From Synechococcus sp. JA-3-3Ab (GTDB lineage: Bacteria > Cyanobacteriota > Cyanobacteriia > Thermostichales > Thermostichaceae): 64,000 nt of DNA. Positions 56,172 to 62,377 of the stretch are shown here, piece after piece. A program made the translations under genes and the position numbers. A model generated the notes under the pieces. That model did not search any database. It was not told where the DNA came from and saw only the letters and a program-made list of their open reading frames with translations. The number at the start of each line of letters is the position of its first letter. Positions within the stretch are counted from its first letter, which is position 1. Location of the stretch: the NCBI RefSeq assembly GCF_000013205.1, contig NC_007775.1:744001-808000 (forward strand). Direction: 5' to 3'.

Positions 56172-57692
56172 ATGGTTCTCTCGGATCCCCTTCACCTTAT
56201 CGTCCAAGAGGTGCGGCAGGGCGAGTACGCAGACCGGGTAAAAAAGCTGGTTTACTTCACCTGCACCCACACTTGGACAAACGACGCTGTCAAGCTGAGC
56301 GGGGAGGAGCTAAAGGCTCTGCTGGAGCAGCTCTACCGCGAGCATGCGACCCTGGAGGACCTAGTCCGGCGTTTTCGCGACGCCATCAGCCAAATCAACA
56401 AGAAGGCTGAATACGCCCGCGTCGCCAAACTGCTGCTGAGCAAGCTCGAGCTCCTCTATCACCAGTCTCAATCGGATCCCGGCAGCCCTCTGACTGCTTC
56501 ATCTGGGGATCTGCCGGCTTGGGTGGCGCCTGCGCCCAGCTTACCTGTGAGATACGGCGGCCTACAACTGCACAAGCAAGACTACGACCCGTTCGAGTTG
56601 CGGGCGGGGGTGATGCAGCAGACAAGTCCCTTGCGGGCCAAGCTGGTTTTGTTCACGGCTTTGCACCACAGGCTAGAGCCCACGGTGCAAGGGTTGGCGG
56701 CCCTACGGCGCTACAGTCTCGACGAGCTGCTCAGAGCCCTTTACGACGCCTGCAACTCCCCGCAGGAGCTGGAAGCGCGGCTGCAACAGGCGGTGCAGCA
56801 GCTCCAGGAGCCGGAGCAGGATAGCCAAGCAGCTAACGCCGTGCTGCAGATGCTGCAGCCTCTCTACGTTTACGTGTCCCAAGAAACAATGGCCGGTGGG
56901 GGGCTAGCTGCCGAGACTCTCGCCGCCGATCTCGATTGGCTCAATGGGGAAAATGCCGTCGGCACTGGCGGGACGGAGTCCAGCCGCATCACTTGGCTGG
57001 AGTCCGAAAGCCCGAACGAGGGGGAAGCGACAGCCGAGCCCCCTGCTTTTTCTGCTCCTGCCGTTCTGGCGTCAGAGCTTCCAGAACCCTGCCGCCAACT
57101 GCTGCACCGTAGCGCCGGATCCCTGATGGCCACCATCGAGAACACCCTGAGCGAGTTGGGCAACGCCCTGGACGAAGGGCTGCAGGACGAGGATCCGGAC
57201 CAATACCTGAGCCTCAAACACCAGGTGCTGCGTGGCCTTCTGAAAGACGTAGAGGGATCCGCTGCCCTGTTCAGAGGGATCCTGAGTAGGCTGGAGCAGT
57301 CGGAGTGGGGTTTGCTGCGGCCCGCCGGCAATGCGGGACAGCCAGGAGAGATGGCCGAGATGCCGCTTCAGGTGGGGGATCCCTATGCCGCTCTGCGGCA
57401 GGTGCTGGCCACCAGCGAGCTGGCCCGCCAAAAGCCCCAGTTGGAGCAGGAAGTGATGCGCTTGGTGCGGCGCAGCATTGGCGCGATCAAAACCGCCATT
57501 GAAAATGCCCTGAGCGAGCTGGGCCAGGCCTTGGACGAACAGTTCCAGAGCCGTCCCCTAGAAGAAGCCTTAGTTCTCAAGTACCAGACGTTGCGCGCCT
57601 TTTTGCAGGAAGTCGAGGAGATCTCCACCAAGTTCGCCGCTTTCTTGGCCCGCATGGAGGAGGCAGAGCGCCGTCTATTTGGCCTGGTTTGA
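56172..57692 (+). CDS. Four-repeat helical protein, function unknown
   Basis: A 506-residue soluble protein that I do not recognise. It is built from two kinds of internal repeat. A: residues about 20-95 (VKKLVYFTCTHTWTNDAVKL, ELKALLEQLYREHATLEDLV) and about 155-240 (RAKLVLFTALHHRLEPTVQG, LDELLRALYDACNSPQELEA). B: about 310-380 (RSAGSLMATIENTLSELGNA, LKHQVLRGLLKDVEG) and about 425-500 (RSIGAIKTAIENALSELGQA, LKYQTLRAFLQEVEE). The A pair and B pair are joined by Pro/Ser/Ala-rich linkers. Everything is predicted helical, with no catalytic motif or signal. It follows rsgA after 134 bases in the same direction. Confidence 0.65.
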   Translation: MVLSDPLHLIVQEVRQGEYADRVKKLVYFTCTHTWTNDAVKLSGEELKALLEQLYREHATLEDLVRRFRDAISQINKKAEYARVAKLLLSKLELLYHQSQSDPGSPLTASSGDLPAWVAPAPSLPVRYGGLQLHKQDYDPFELRAGVMQQTSPLRAKLVLFTALHHRLEPTVQGLAALRRYSLDELLRALYDACNSPQELEARLQQAVQQLQEPEQDSQAANAVLQMLQPLYVYVSQETMAGGGLAAETLAADLDWLNGENAVGTGGTESSRITWLESESPNEGEATAEPPAFSAPAVLASELPEPCRQLLHRSAGSLMATIENTLSELGNALDEGLQDEDPDQYLSLKHQVLRGLLKDVEGSAALFRGILSRLEQSEWGLLRPAGNAGQPGEMAEMPLQVGDPYAALRQVLATSELARQKPQLEQEVMRLVRRSIGAIKTAIENALSELGQALDEQFQSRPLEEALVLKYQTLRAFLQEVEEISTKFAAFLARMEEAERRLFGLV

Positions 57693-58084: not shown

Positions 58085-59077
58085 ATGCCAATGGATGCCA
58101 AAGATCTGCTCCGACTGTACCGGGCAGGACGGGTTAACTTTGCAGGCGAGAACCTGGCCGCTCTGGATCTGAGCCGAGCGGATTTGATCGGGATAGACCT
58201 TTCTCAGGCCGACCTGCATGGTATCAACTTGATCTTTGCCTACCTGGGGCGGGCCAAGCTGCAGAAGGCCAACTTGGTGGGAGCGAATCTCAGTGGGGCC
58301 AACCTCAGCCAGGCTGACCTGAGCGAGGCAGATCTCAGAGATGCGCATTTGCACGGCACCACGTTGCAAGGGGCGGACTTGCACGGGGCTAACTTGGCGC
58401 TGGCTCTGTTGATCGACGCCAACTTGCTAGAGGCGGATCTGCGCTGGGCCAACCTCACCAGCGCCAACCTGGGGGGGGCTTGCCTGCGGGGGGCCAATCT
58501 CCGTTTCGAGAGTCGCCGGGCAGCCGTGCTGCGCAGCGCCAATCTCAGCCGCGCCGACCTGAGCGGGGCCAACCTGGCGGGAGCGGATTTGACGCGGGCC
58601 GACCTAAGGGGGGCCAATCTCAAAGAGGCCAGTTTAATCGGAGCCCACTTACAGGGAGCCAACCTACAGCGGGCCTGTTTGCGCGGGGCCCTCCTCAGCA
58701 ACGCCGACCTGAGGGGAGCTTCCTTTCTGGGCGGGGACCTACAGGGGGTGCAGATGGGGCGGGCCAACTTGAAGGAAGCCATGCTCAGCCAGGTCAACTT
58801 GGCGGAAGCCAACCTCAGCGAGGCAGATCTGGCGGGAGCCGATCTTTCCGCCGCCTGCCTGCGCTCGGCCAAGCTGGCGCGGACGGATCTGAGTCGGGCT
58901 AACCTGGCCGGGGCCGACCTGAGATCGGCCAGCCTGGTGGATGCCTATCTGGGCCGCACCAACCTGGAAAATGCCGATCTCCGCGAGGCCATCCTCACCC
59001 GCGCCGACCTCAGCACCGCCAACCTCGCGGGAGCCAACCTGCGCGGGGCGACTCTGCCAGATGGACGGATTGGGTGA
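58085..59077 (+). CDS. Pentapeptide-repeat protein
   Basis: A 330-residue protein of which residues about 20-325 are pentapeptide repeats of the A(D/N)LXX kind (for example ANLSGANLSQADLSEADLRD, AHLHGTTLQGADLHGANLAL), which fold into a right-handed square beta helix. No signal peptide, membrane helix or additional domain is seen, so it should be cytoplasmic. Such proteins are numerous in cyanobacteria; a few mimic DNA and inhibit gyrase, most have no known role. An ATG at 58091 (MDAKDLLRLYRAG) is an equally possible start. The histidine kinase-like gene starts 28 bases after its end. Confidence 0.88.
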   Translation: MPMDAKDLLRLYRAGRVNFAGENLAALDLSRADLIGIDLSQADLHGINLIFAYLGRAKLQKANLVGANLSGANLSQADLSEADLRDAHLHGTTLQGADLHGANLALALLIDANLLEADLRWANLTSANLGGACLRGANLRFESRRAAVLRSANLSRADLSGANLAGADLTRADLRGANLKEASLIGAHLQGANLQRACLRGALLSNADLRGASFLGGDLQGVQMGRANLKEAMLSQVNLAEANLSEADLAGADLSAACLRSAKLARTDLSRANLAGADLRSASLVDAYLGRTNLENADLREAILTRADLSTANLAGANLRGATLPDGRIG

Positions 59078-59104: not shown

Positions 59105-60700
59105 GTGAGGTTTTCCGCTGTCCTAGAAGCTCCACAACCGCTAGCCTACAGGGGAAGGGTGGGATCAAAGGGATCCGTGAACAGCCGCCGATTTCTGTCC
59201 TTGATGGAAGCCTTGTGGGCCGCTCTACCCTTGCCAGAATGGTTGCCGGGGGCGGGAGAGCGCTCTTGGCAGCAGACGGTGGCAGCCCTGCTCCAGCTAT
59301 GGCAAGAGGTTGGACAGTTTGGCGTGGTGATCGGGGGGCCGGTCTCCTGGTGGCCCCCTTGGGTGGTGCAGGATCCCTTACCCCAACTGCCGCTGCCCAT
59401 GGATGCGCTGCATCTTCCCCGCCACTCTTGGGAGCCGGCACGGGAACCCCCCTGGTTGTTCAGCCCGGATTTTTCCCCTGAGTCAATCCTCACCCCTGGG
59501 CAGACGGTGATCCCTCTCCTGCCGCGGGATCCACTGGTGGAGGAGCCTTTTCTGTTGCTGCTCACCCCTGTTTTTTCGGCAGTAGCTGCCCAGGGTCACC
59601 ATCCCCACACCCGGCAGAGGGGGATGATGGTCTCTTTTGAGCCGGAGGTGATCCGACGAGCCTGGCAGAGCCTGGAGCAACGGGTTCAACAGGGCAGGCC
59701 AGACCGGCTGGCCGCTTGGCAGGAGTTGGCCCGCCACTATCCCCTGATGCAGCCGCATGTACGGGTGTTGGCCCGCTTCAGCAGCTTCCTTCTGCTGGGT
59801 AACCTGGCCGAGTTTGGATCCCCGCCCGCCCGCCTGCCCCCTGCCAGGGCAGAACAGGAGGCTGCCGCTGTGCCTCCACCGCCACCAGCAGCAAGGCAGA
59901 TCCCGGCTTCTTCATCTTCCGCTTCCTCGCCGGCGCCTGAGCCTCCCGCCCACGGCCGCTCCTCCGCTCCCCAAGCCGAGCCAGAGCAAGCGGGCAGCCT
60001 CTCGGAGGCGGAGTTGTTGCGGGCTCTCATCCACGAGATCCAGACGCCCCTCAGCACCATCCGCACCTTGGTCAGCCTCATCCTGAAGCGGCGCGACCTG
60101 CCACCGCGGGTGCGGGAATACGTGGAGAAGATCGACCGCGAGTGCACCGAGCAAATCAACCGTTTCGGTCTGTTTTTCCAGGCCACAGAAACGGTCATGC
60201 CCGCTGCCACGCCAGGCGAGGGACGTCGGTTGCAACTGGAGCCGATTGCGCTGGTGGACTTGGTGCGGCAAAACCTGCCCCGCTGGCAGGAACAGGTGGA
60301 ACGGCGGGGATCCCGCTTGGAGTTGGAGATCCCTGCCGAGCTGCCCGATGTGGTCAGCGATCCCAAAGCCCTGGAGGCGGTGCTATTTGGAATTATCGAC
60401 CGCCTAGCCCGTAGTACTCCCGCTGGCAGCGGCATCCGCGCCCAATTGCTCAGCGCTGGCGAGCTGGTGAAGCTGCAGTTCCAGGTAAACACCCCCGAGG
60501 GGAGCGACACCCCTAGCCTGGAACTTAAGTCCCCTCAGCCAATTGGCCAGTTGTTGGTGGTGCAGCCAGATACCGGGGCCATTAGCCTCAGCCTGCCAGT
60601 AGCCCGAACCCTGTTCCGAGCTTTGGGGGGCTATCTCACTGTGCGCCATCGGGCTCGGCAAGGGGAAATTCTCAATATCTACTTACCCCGCCAGCTCTAG
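59105..60700 (+). CDS. Histidine kinase-like protein with degenerate ATPase domain
   Basis: A 531-residue protein starting with a GTG at 59105 behind GGAGAAG. Residues about 1-240 form a sensor-like region without a recognised family, followed by an Ala/Pro/Ser-rich linker. The HisKA dimerisation domain follows, with ELLRALIHEIQTPLSTIRTL (phospho-acceptor His310) and a well-formed second helix. The C-terminal part has the fold pattern of HATPase_c (DPKALEAVLFGIIDRLARST) but no DxGxG or GxGLGL boxes, so ATP binding is doubtful. It may be a phosphatase, a receiver of phosphate from another kinase, or a structural partner. A normal kinase and a response regulator follow in line. Confidence 0.7.
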   Translation: MRFSAVLEAPQPLAYRGRVGSKGSVNSRRFLSLMEALWAALPLPEWLPGAGERSWQQTVAALLQLWQEVGQFGVVIGGPVSWWPPWVVQDPLPQLPLPMDALHLPRHSWEPAREPPWLFSPDFSPESILTPGQTVIPLLPRDPLVEEPFLLLLTPVFSAVAAQGHHPHTRQRGMMVSFEPEVIRRAWQSLEQRVQQGRPDRLAAWQELARHYPLMQPHVRVLARFSSFLLLGNLAEFGSPPARLPPARAEQEAAAVPPPPPAARQIPASSSSASSPAPEPPAHGRSSAPQAEPEQAGSLSEAELLRALIHEIQTPLSTIRTLVSLILKRRDLPPRVREYVEKIDRECTEQINRFGLFFQATETVMPAATPGEGRRLQLEPIALVDLVRQNLPRWQEQVERRGSRLELEIPAELPDVVSDPKALEAVLFGIIDRLARSTPAGSGIRAQLLSAGELVKLQFQVNTPEGSDTPSLELKSPQPIGQLLVVQPDTGAISLSLPVARTLFRALGGYLTVRHRARQGEILNIYLPRQL

Positions 60701-60795
60701 TCCGCCGGCCTGGAGCCGGTCTGAAGTGGCAAATCCCAGGGAGGATGGGGCTAGGATCGATTTGCTTGCTCCAGGAGAGTTGAAAGAGGGGATCC

Positions 60796-61575
60796 ATGCC
60801 GAGAGCGAAAAAAGTTGCCGAACCTCACCCAGAGCCTGAGCCCGTCTGTGGGGGCGGGGATCCCAGGCCTGGCGGGGGGATCACTCTATCTGCCCAGCAG
60901 CTCTCCACCTTGCTCCACGAGATGCGCAATCCTCTAACCGCCCTGAGCACGCTGGCCAAGTTGTTGCAAAAGCGTCTGCCCCCCGACGATCGCAACCACT
61001 GGATTGGCCTGAGCATTGAACAGGAGTGCAAGCATCTGCAGGATCTGCTGGCGGAGCTGGAGCGCTTGGACGGGATCCCGGCTCCTCTCCAACTTCGGCC
61101 CCTCTCCTTGGCCGACCTGCTGCGGGAGTGGAGCCCTATTTATCAGGCCCTGGCGGAAGCGCAGGGACATCGCTTTCAGGCCGTTCTTCCCCCTTTCCTG
61201 CCGCCGGTACTGGCAGATCCCCGCGCCCTGCGCCAGGTGTTGGATAACTTAATCGACAACGCCTGCAAGTACACCCCGCCCCCCGGCGATATCCAGCTCA
61301 GGGTAGAGGTCAAGCCCGCCGAGGAAGCGAGAGGCTCAAGCGCCTCCTCTTGCCAGGAGGTGTGGATCGCCGTCTGCGACAACGGCCCCGGCATCCATCC
61401 TGAGAACCTGGAGCGGATCTTCGATCCGTTTTTTCGCGCCGATCCCTCCAAGCCGGGGCAGGGGCTGGGGTTGGCCATCAGCCGCGACTTGGCCGCCCAA
61501 ATGGGAGGAGATCTCGAGGTGGAAAGCTCCCCCCAGGGCTCCTGCTTCCGCCTCAGATTGCTCACGGCCCAGTAG
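60796..61575 (+). CDS. Compact sensor-less histidine kinase
   Basis: A 259-residue kinase made only of HisKA and HATPase_c domains. The H box is STLLHEMRNPLTALSTLAKL with His41; the N box is QVLDNLIDNACKYTPPPG; the G boxes are VCDNGPGIHPENLERIFDPF and GQGLGLAISRDLAAQMGGDL. All catalytic elements are intact. There is no transmembrane segment or input domain, so it should be soluble and may receive its signal from a partner such as the degenerate kinase 95 bases upstream. The response regulator gene follows 64 bases downstream. Confidence 0.88.
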   Translation: MPRAKKVAEPHPEPEPVCGGGDPRPGGGITLSAQQLSTLLHEMRNPLTALSTLAKLLQKRLPPDDRNHWIGLSIEQECKHLQDLLAELERLDGIPAPLQLRPLSLADLLREWSPIYQALAEAQGHRFQAVLPPFLPPVLADPRALRQVLDNLIDNACKYTPPPGDIQLRVEVKPAEEARGSSASSCQEVWIAVCDNGPGIHPENLERIFDPFFRADPSKPGQGLGLAISRDLAAQMGGDLEVESSPQGSCFRLRLLTAQ

Positions 61576-61639
61576 GGCTTAAATGGAGCAGGTATGTCTC
61601 TTCCAGCCAAAATCTTGAAAGCTATCCAGGAGCTGCACA

Positions 61640-62377
61640 ATGGCCCCCTTCGCTCAAGCCAAATCCGAACCTGCCTCGGCACGGGCCCGCATCTTGTTGG
61701 TGGATGACGAGCCAGGCTTGCGGGAAGCAGTGCAAGCCTATCTAGAAGACAGCGGCTTTGAGGTGATCCCGGCTGCCAATGCCCAGCAAGCCCTGCAACT
61801 GCTCAGCACGACGCAGCCACAGTTGATTATTTCCGACATCATGATGCCGGGCATGGACGGCTACCAATTTTTGGCGCAAGTGCGAAAACTCGATCCCTAC
61901 AGCCACCTGCCCGTGGTCTTCCTCACCGCCAAGGGGATGACCGCCGACCGCATCCAGGGCTACCGGGCCGGCGTCGATGCCTACTTGCCCAAGCCATTCG
62001 ACCCGGAGGAGCTGGTGGCCATTGTCTCCAATCTCATCGAGCGCTCCCGCGCGGCCAGCCCCTCGGAGGTAGTGGCCCGCGAGCTGGCCTCGATTCGCGC
62101 CCTGCTATCGGAGCGAACTCTCCCCCCGACCATTCCCTCTCAGCCCCCCACCCCAACTCCTTTACCCCCACCGATTAAGGTGGAGCTGACACCACGGGAA
62201 CAGCAGGTGTTGGAGAAGGTAGCAGAGGGTCTGATGAACAAAGAAATTGCCAAACAACTGCAAACCAGCGTGCGCAACGTGGAAAAATACGTCACCCGCC
62301 TCCTCAACAAGACGGGCACCAGCAGCCGCACCGAGCTGGTGCGCTACGCCCTCACCTACGGTCTGATCCGGTTGTAG
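61640..62377 (+). CDS. Ycf29/Rre1-like response regulator (NarL/LuxR family)
   Basis: A 245-residue response regulator. Receiver domain: ILLVDDEPGLREAVQAYLED, phosphorylation site Asp66 in IISDIMMPGMDGYQF, conserved lysine in AYLPKPFDPEEL. A Pro-rich linker (about residues 155-180) leads to a LuxR-type HTH (TPREQQVLEKVAEGLMNKEI, VRNVEKYVTRLLNKTG). The length and the KAIA-type HTH resemble Ycf29, called Rre1 in Synechocystis, an orphan regulator of stress genes there. Here it is directly preceded by two kinase-like genes, suggesting a cognate pair. Confidence 0.82.
   Translation: MAPFAQAKSEPASARARILLVDDEPGLREAVQAYLEDSGFEVIPAANAQQALQLLSTTQPQLIISDIMMPGMDGYQFLAQVRKLDPYSHLPVVFLTAKGMTADRIQGYRAGVDAYLPKPFDPEELVAIVSNLIERSRAASPSEVVARELASIRALLSERTLPPTIPSQPPTPTPLPPPIKVELTPREQQVLEKVAEGLMNKEIAKQLQTSVRNVEKYVTRLLNKTGTSSRTELVRYALTYGLIRL

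Follow-up and report, generated by a model that had tools for sequence, protein, structure and literature searches.

Two genes for histidine kinase-like proteins are followed on the same strand by a response regulator gene in the window, a 64,000-nucleotide stretch of a 2,932,766-bp cyanobacterial genome. The first of these kinases appears to have lost its means of using ATP, and the question arises what a disabled kinase contributes beside an intact one. The first-pass annotation had proposed one signalling unit split in two, with the first protein (P1) sensing and carrying the phospho-acceptor histidine, the second (P2) supplying the ATPase, and a regulator of the Ycf29/Rre1 type (P3) following them. 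The reading that we favor, to which we assign a probability slightly above even (about 0.55), is that the trio represents an ancestral three-component Hik2-Rre1 pathway, in which P1, as a sensory pseudokinase, pairs with P2 and so directs the phosphorylation of Rre1. Because the clustering of the trio is confined to the deepest branches of the cyanobacteria, the disabled kinase is probably the missing third part of this conserved stress and redox pathway.

Arrangement of the row and identity of P2 and P3

All three genes in the row proved to be real and in the same orientation, and the two phospho-acceptor histidine codons were located at the positions previously assigned to them (Table 1). 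The start of P1, on the other hand, had to be revised. Its open frame extends in the 5' direction to 59105, the first possible codon, which had been taken as the start, but the alignment revealed a Val at GTG 59177 that is common to the relatives of P1, and the protein probably begins there. Scanning of the P1-P2-P3 row yielded no terminator sites on the + strand, where the expected numbers are low, and no promoter sites.

Table 1. Positions of genes, key codons and intergenic gaps in the window
Feature	Position	Strand	Remarks
P1, putative pseudo-histidine kinase	about 59177..60700	+	HisKA only; conserved Val start; motif loss; AlphaFold
P1 predicted layout			Putative sensory domain at the N-terminus, then a disordered linker, the DHp carrying His310 and a CA fold that lacks the N/G1/F/G2 boxes
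P1 His310 phospho-acceptor codon	60032..60034	+	In HEIQTP; numbered from 59105
P1 Cys347 codon	60143..60145	+	DHp helix 2
P1-P2 gap, 95 nt	60701..60795	+	Without terminator-like site
P2, histidine kinase lacking a sensor, Hik2 orthologue of class II (by sequence)	60796..61575	+	HisKA + HATPase_c, all boxes
P2 phospho-acceptor His41 codon	60916..60918	+	
P2-P3 gap, 64 nt	61576..61639	+	Without terminator-like site
P3, Rre1/Ycf29-type response regulator	61640..62377	+	REC with Asp66 + LuxR/GerE DNA-binding domain

P3 matched the Pfam families REC and LuxR/GerE. Its best matches in other cyanobacteria exhibited about 57-68% identity (E about 1e-80), compared to 36% (2e-37) for the regulator ranking next within the same genome as P3, and its assignment to the Ycf29/Rre1 type was thereby confirmed. 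A P3 relative was present in all 242 cyanobacterial genomes sampled, and except in six of them its orthology was clear (E of 1e-46 or better). With its strongly conserved receiver residues and DNA-binding helix, P3 is a one-to-one orthologue across cyanobacteria that combines REC with a LuxR-type HTH.

The description of the second kinase as having all boxes and no sensor was likewise correct, since the 259-aa P2 matched HisKA and HATPase_c (E 1e-28) and neither a sensor family nor GAF. In a tree of 75 kinase cores, the 15 P2 proteins and 13 Hik2-type kinases, most of them with a detectable GAF domain, grouped in a single clade (support 100/100) apart from 47 other kinases that had mostly been chosen for their resemblance to P2. 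When Hik2 from a 2,593,857-bp genome, presumably T. elongatus BP-1, was used as the query, P2 ranked first in 11 of the 13 basal genomes, with matches confined to the kinase part. The 399-aa Gloeobacter kinases ranking next exhibited a weak PAS match and fell outside the clade of P2 and Hik2. A separate GAF-bearing Hik2 was considered for the basal genomes as well, but none was found, and Hik2 searches there matched mainly the kinase part. The exception was a weaker hit in G057, which covered positions 54-382 of the Hik2 query.

Judged by its sequence, P2 is a Hik2 orthologue that lacks the sensor (class II, not class I). This agrees with an earlier study naming truncated class II Hik2 proteins without GAF in Gloeobacter violaceus PCC 7421, JA-2-3B'a(2-13) and JA-3-3Ab (PMC5904244), and P2 is the protein previously reported for the last of these strains. 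The same orthology corrects the report that Thermostichus strains have no Hik2 (PMC9953108).

The intact HATPase_c domain is in line with the proposed role of P2 as the supplier of the ATPase, but P2 is not only that, as all 15 P2 proteins keep their own phospho-acceptor histidine. They also keep the N-box and the specificity residues, and the Synechocystis orthologue Hik2 autophosphorylates and passes the phosphate to Rre1 by itself (PMC4751278). These observations make it improbable that the kinase is strictly split, with P2 serving as ATPase only and P1 His310 as the sole phosphodonor to Rre1, even though P1 keeps an invariant histidine beside its lost ATP boxes and precedents exist in FasBC and in CheA3/CheA4 of Rhodobacter sphaeroides, where autophosphorylation and phosphotransfer are divided between two proteins (PMC3591291; see also PMC6829392). 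The two CheA proteins are kinases of the chemotaxis type, and CheA4, unlike P2, has no phospho-acceptor domain.

P1 as a member of a degenerate kinase family

P1 matched HisKA with an E-value of 4e-8, and no match to HATPase_c was obtained. The H-box with the phospho-acceptor histidine was present in all 116 relatives, and the acceptor histidine, the Glu that follows and a Cys in DHp helix 2 were invariant across these 116 proteins, as was the motif HExxT throughout the family. The residues of the N-box, G1, F and G2 of P1 were all gone together; family-wide, the G1 Asp was missing from 113/116 proteins and the G2 Gly from nearly all. The earlier statement that P1 keeps its histidine without ATP boxes was therefore right as far as these residues are concerned, but the fold of the CA domain is kept: the AlphaFold model displayed a well-formed DHp and a complete CA fold, and many P1 relatives scored weakly for HATPase_c. 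Among structural matches to the kinase region, RetS/GacS reached Z 17.7 (2.7 A, 190 residues) and DivL Z 17.6 (5.6 A, 214 residues), with RetS, GacS, DivL and HK853 tied.

Since any substitution of a G1 or G2 glycine abolishes autophosphorylation of Hik2 (PMC4751278), P1 should be a pseudokinase whose own ATPase is dead and which is inactive alone. The intact predicted CA fold and the weak HATPase_c scores of some relatives might instead indicate that P1 binds ATP via unusual residues and serves as a second, divergent kinase. With all four boxes gone and the Hik2 glycine changes abolishing activity, we consider this very improbable.

The P1 of the window contains a single cysteine, Cys347, which is the conserved one of helix 2. 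Its equivalent was found in all P2 proteins and in 8/53 other kinases and was absent from GAF-type Hik2. The N-terminal domain of P1 yielded only faint resemblances. Pfam DICT matched weakly (E 0.016) in the Gloeobacter P1 and with weak E-values in two of the 57 members of set A2, Foldseek returned nothing at E < 0.6 for this domain, and the best VIA-align score, Z 7.3 to the TrmB sugar-binding domain (3.2 A, 115 residues), was below the trustworthy level.

In the tree, P1 was placed on a long branch as sister to P2 and Hik2 with moderate support (86), making it the paralogue nearest to them. A sensitive profile applied to a phylum-wide sample detected the P1 family in 48/49 Cyanobacteriia genomes, among them Prochlorococcus-sized ones, but not in any listed genome from the sister classes. 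The P1 counts exclude the kinases L096 and L097 from two Prochlorococcus-sized genomes, which were placed outside the P1 clade. Two simple explanations for P1 were rejected. It is not a truncated pseudogene, as the degenerate state is common to 116 relatives with nearly all frames intact and is kept in tiny genomes, nor is it a lost Hik2 itself, as P1 forms its own clade and the Hik2 orthologue is P2.

To see where P1 resembles P2 and Hik2, identities were compared for five positions that make up the regulator-specificity set of HK853 (listed in PDB titles), for the rest of the DHp and for the CA domain. At the five positions, P1 identity was 0.49 to P2 and 0.46 to Hik2 compared to 0.17 to other kinases. 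The corresponding values were 0.30, 0.26 and 0.19 for the rest of the DHp, and 0.21, 0.19 and 0.19 for the CA domain. Because the specificity positions are near to those of P2 and Hik2 while the CA domain shows no such preference over other kinases, the docking face of P1 has apparently been kept while the ATPase region drifted. P1 probably still acts on the Hik2-Rre1 pathway, and its invariant HExxT would fit phosphotransfer or phosphatase action. The likeness between P1 and P2 could also stem from common ancestry instead of partnership.

Kept docking positions beside a lost ATPase would also suit a dedicated Rre1 phosphatase or phosphate sink, with P1 forming its own homodimer and dephosphorylating via HExxT, in need of neither ATP nor P2. 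This is the strongest rival to the pathway proposed here, albeit an unlikely one. It gains from the fact that HExxT is invariant in P1 while the GAF-type Hik2 motif is HQxx(N/S). Against it stands that the acceptor histidine, invariant in P1, is not strictly required in the usual HisKA phosphatase reaction. Class I Hik2 has, moreover, already been described as bifunctional (PMC13421787), which likewise speaks against a dedicated phosphatase.

Linkage and co-occurrence of the three genes

Order names of the compared genomes were partly taken from kinship labels and are presumed. P1, P2 and P3 were contiguous in 8/9 Thermostichales, comprising all six genomes of the genus as well as G057 and G101, the latter with P3 cut by the contig end. 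In the ninth genome (G091), P2 and P3 were linked and P1 was located elsewhere. The three genes were also contiguous in 6/6 Gloeobacterales (Gloeobacter-type family). In the 4,659,019-bp genome of this order, which we take to be G. violaceus, the genes are 1-2 nt apart with the junctions TGAcGTG and TGAcATG. In contrast, an Rre1 orthologue within 4 kb of P1 was found in none of 80 other cyanobacterial genomes. Outside the two orders all three genes were usually present but scattered, Hik2 carried GAF, and Hik2 and Rre1 were far apart in the genomes with known positions. A lack of linkage in relatives, which the first-pass annotation had named as refuting its proposal, was thus not encountered among the near relatives and Gloeobacterales but was observed in other cyanobacteria. 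Similarly, its view of Rre1 as usually an orphan applies to most cyanobacteria but not to this lineage and Gloeobacterales.

Since the cluster persists in the two deepest orders and its genes lie apart elsewhere, an ancestral P1-P2-P3 operon is suggested, and two independent assemblies appear less likely. The cluster might also be the leftover of an ancient tandem duplication, with P1 having turned to an unrelated role and its position beside P2 and Rre1 serving no present function. P1 being the nearest paralogue of P2/Hik2 and the genes being unlinked in most cyanobacteria would agree with this, but the order kept across two deep orders, the 1-2 nt junctions, the selective retention of docking residues and the joint absence of the genes described below make it a decidedly poor explanation.

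Profile searches found P1 absent in 11 genomes, Hik2/P2 in four of those examined and Rre1 in six. Three genomes belonging to two families (G094, G104 and G061) lacked all three genes. The co-occurrence of P1 and Rre1 yielded a one-sided Fisher p of 0.0013, which is suggestive only, as the genomes are related. The parts are nonetheless separable because G016 (family f17) keeps Hik2 and Rre1 without P1, while in G088, G098 and G142 only Rre1 is missing and both P1 and Hik2 are present.

Proposed pathway and its relation to known systems

In the pathway that we favor, P1 would be a cytosolic sensory pseudokinase with a dead ATPase, P2 the active kinase without an input domain and P3/Rre1 the output. 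P1 would bind P2 via the related DHp four-helix domain, and a signal read by the N-terminal domain of P1 or by the invariant DHp cysteine would set the kinase/phosphatase activity of P2. The phosphoryl group could reach Rre1 Asp66 from P2 His41 and/or from P1 His310, which the P2 ATPase may phosphorylate in trans. In other cyanobacteria, P1 may still act on the GAF-bearing Hik2. Sequence-based support for this pathway comes from the loss of ATP motifs in P1, its kept histidine, HExxT and docking residues, the orthology of P2, the identity of Rre1, the linkage and the joint absence. Of the proposed unit split in two, the linkage, joint absence and kept docking residues uphold the unit, but the own histidine of P2 and the ability of Hik2 to work alone (PMC4751278) argue against the split. 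Because P2 has a complete DHp with its histidine and Hik2 acts alone, it is just as conceivable that P1 serves as an allosteric partner or as a phosphatase.

A wider reading, which we hold more tentatively and regard as possible rather than probable, extends this pathway to nearly all cyanobacteria, Prochlorococcus included, with P1 as the hitherto overlooked third component of Hik2-Rre1 redox/heat-stress signalling. P1 would have arisen with oxygenic cyanobacteria, first in an operon with the sensorless Hik2 and Rre1, and would control Hik2/Rre1 in trans after the genes were scattered and Hik2 gained GAF.

Several known systems bear a likeness to this arrangement. In RetS/GacS and DivL/CckA, one kinase-like protein steers another via DHp contact, and RetS and DivL are the best matches of the P1 kinase region. 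P1 differs from DivL and RetS in keeping its histidine and having lost the ATP motifs. In DivL, Tyr replaces the phospho-acceptor histidine, and the genes for RetS and GacS do not lie side by side. FasBCA of Streptococcus pyogenes, a three-component system with experimental support, is similar in that the genes for two kinase-like proteins and a regulator stay together, in an operon there and as the trio in 8/9 Thermostichales and 6/6 Gloeobacterales here. FasC, a proposed pseudokinase with a functional histidine and a dispensable ATPase, forms a heterodimer with the kinase FasB (PMC12675982). FasB and FasC are, however, membrane proteins, and their regulator is a different one; the likeness lies in the mode of action, with the pairing of P1 and P2 being what we infer, and common origin is not claimed. 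ChrS follows a related logic (PMC9491836).

With P2 orthologous to Hik2 and P3 to Rre1, the row corresponds to the Hik2-Rre1 system (CSK-Ycf29 of plastids). It differs from Hik2-Rre1 elsewhere in that kinase and regulator are linked and P1 precedes them. Neither P1 nor the linkage of kinase and regulator is mentioned in the Hik2 papers PMC5904244 and PMC4751278, and no description of a cyanobacterial pseudo-histidine kinase, the P1 family or the cluster was found in the open-access literature that was searched.

Few signalling systems are conserved in cyanobacteria and were passed to plastids, and Hik2-Rre1 is among them. The direction of its redox control has been described as unresolved (PMC13421787), and for the sensorless Hik2 of the deepest lineages only DHp-based regulation has been offered as a working mode (PMC5904244). 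P1, being adjacent, nearly universal and equipped with the same docking residues, would provide a concrete answer to how a sensorless Hik2 works, and the prediction follows that deleting the P1 orthologue in model strains would alter the phosphorylation of Rre1.

Surroundings of the pseudo-histidine kinase gene (P1)

The pentapeptide-repeat gene scored slightly over the HetL equivalog cut-off. Family searches with the 506-aa protein returned no match above cut-off. About 12 cyanobacteria of later lineages carry a histidine kinase of the ordinary kind, approximately 470-600 aa long, which lies convergent to the P1 orthologue and at most about 150 nt downstream of it (loci L186, L194, L195, L203, L206, L208, L209, L213, L214, L217, L225 and L230). 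One typical cyanobacterial P1 (L196) comes from a contig that bears the label Candidatus Gracilibacteria isolate SU_1_2 and is probably misbinned. Elsewhere in the own genome of the window (G000), a kinase ATPase match is broken by TGA and possibly represents a decayed kinase gene.

Coordinates of features near P1 and elsewhere in the genome
Feature	Position	Strand	Location
Pentapeptide-repeat gene	window 58085-59077	+ (same as P1)	directly upstream of P1
Gene for 506-aa protein	window 56172-57692		upstream of P1
Broken kinase ATPase match	G000:C1:2601755-2602072		own genome

Separate losses of Rre1 and P1

Three of the sampled cyanobacterial genomes (G088, G098 and G142) possess Hik2 and P1 while Rre1 is absent, and both retained proteins may therefore act on a different regulator, e.g. 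RppA. P1 itself was lost in members G016, G035, G049, G063, G085, G096 and G106 of family f17. Hik2 and Rre1 are retained in G016, the sole P1-less genome of this family examined for all three genes. The P1-less f17 genomes constitute a natural test of how the Hik2-Rre1 pathway behaves in the absence of P1.
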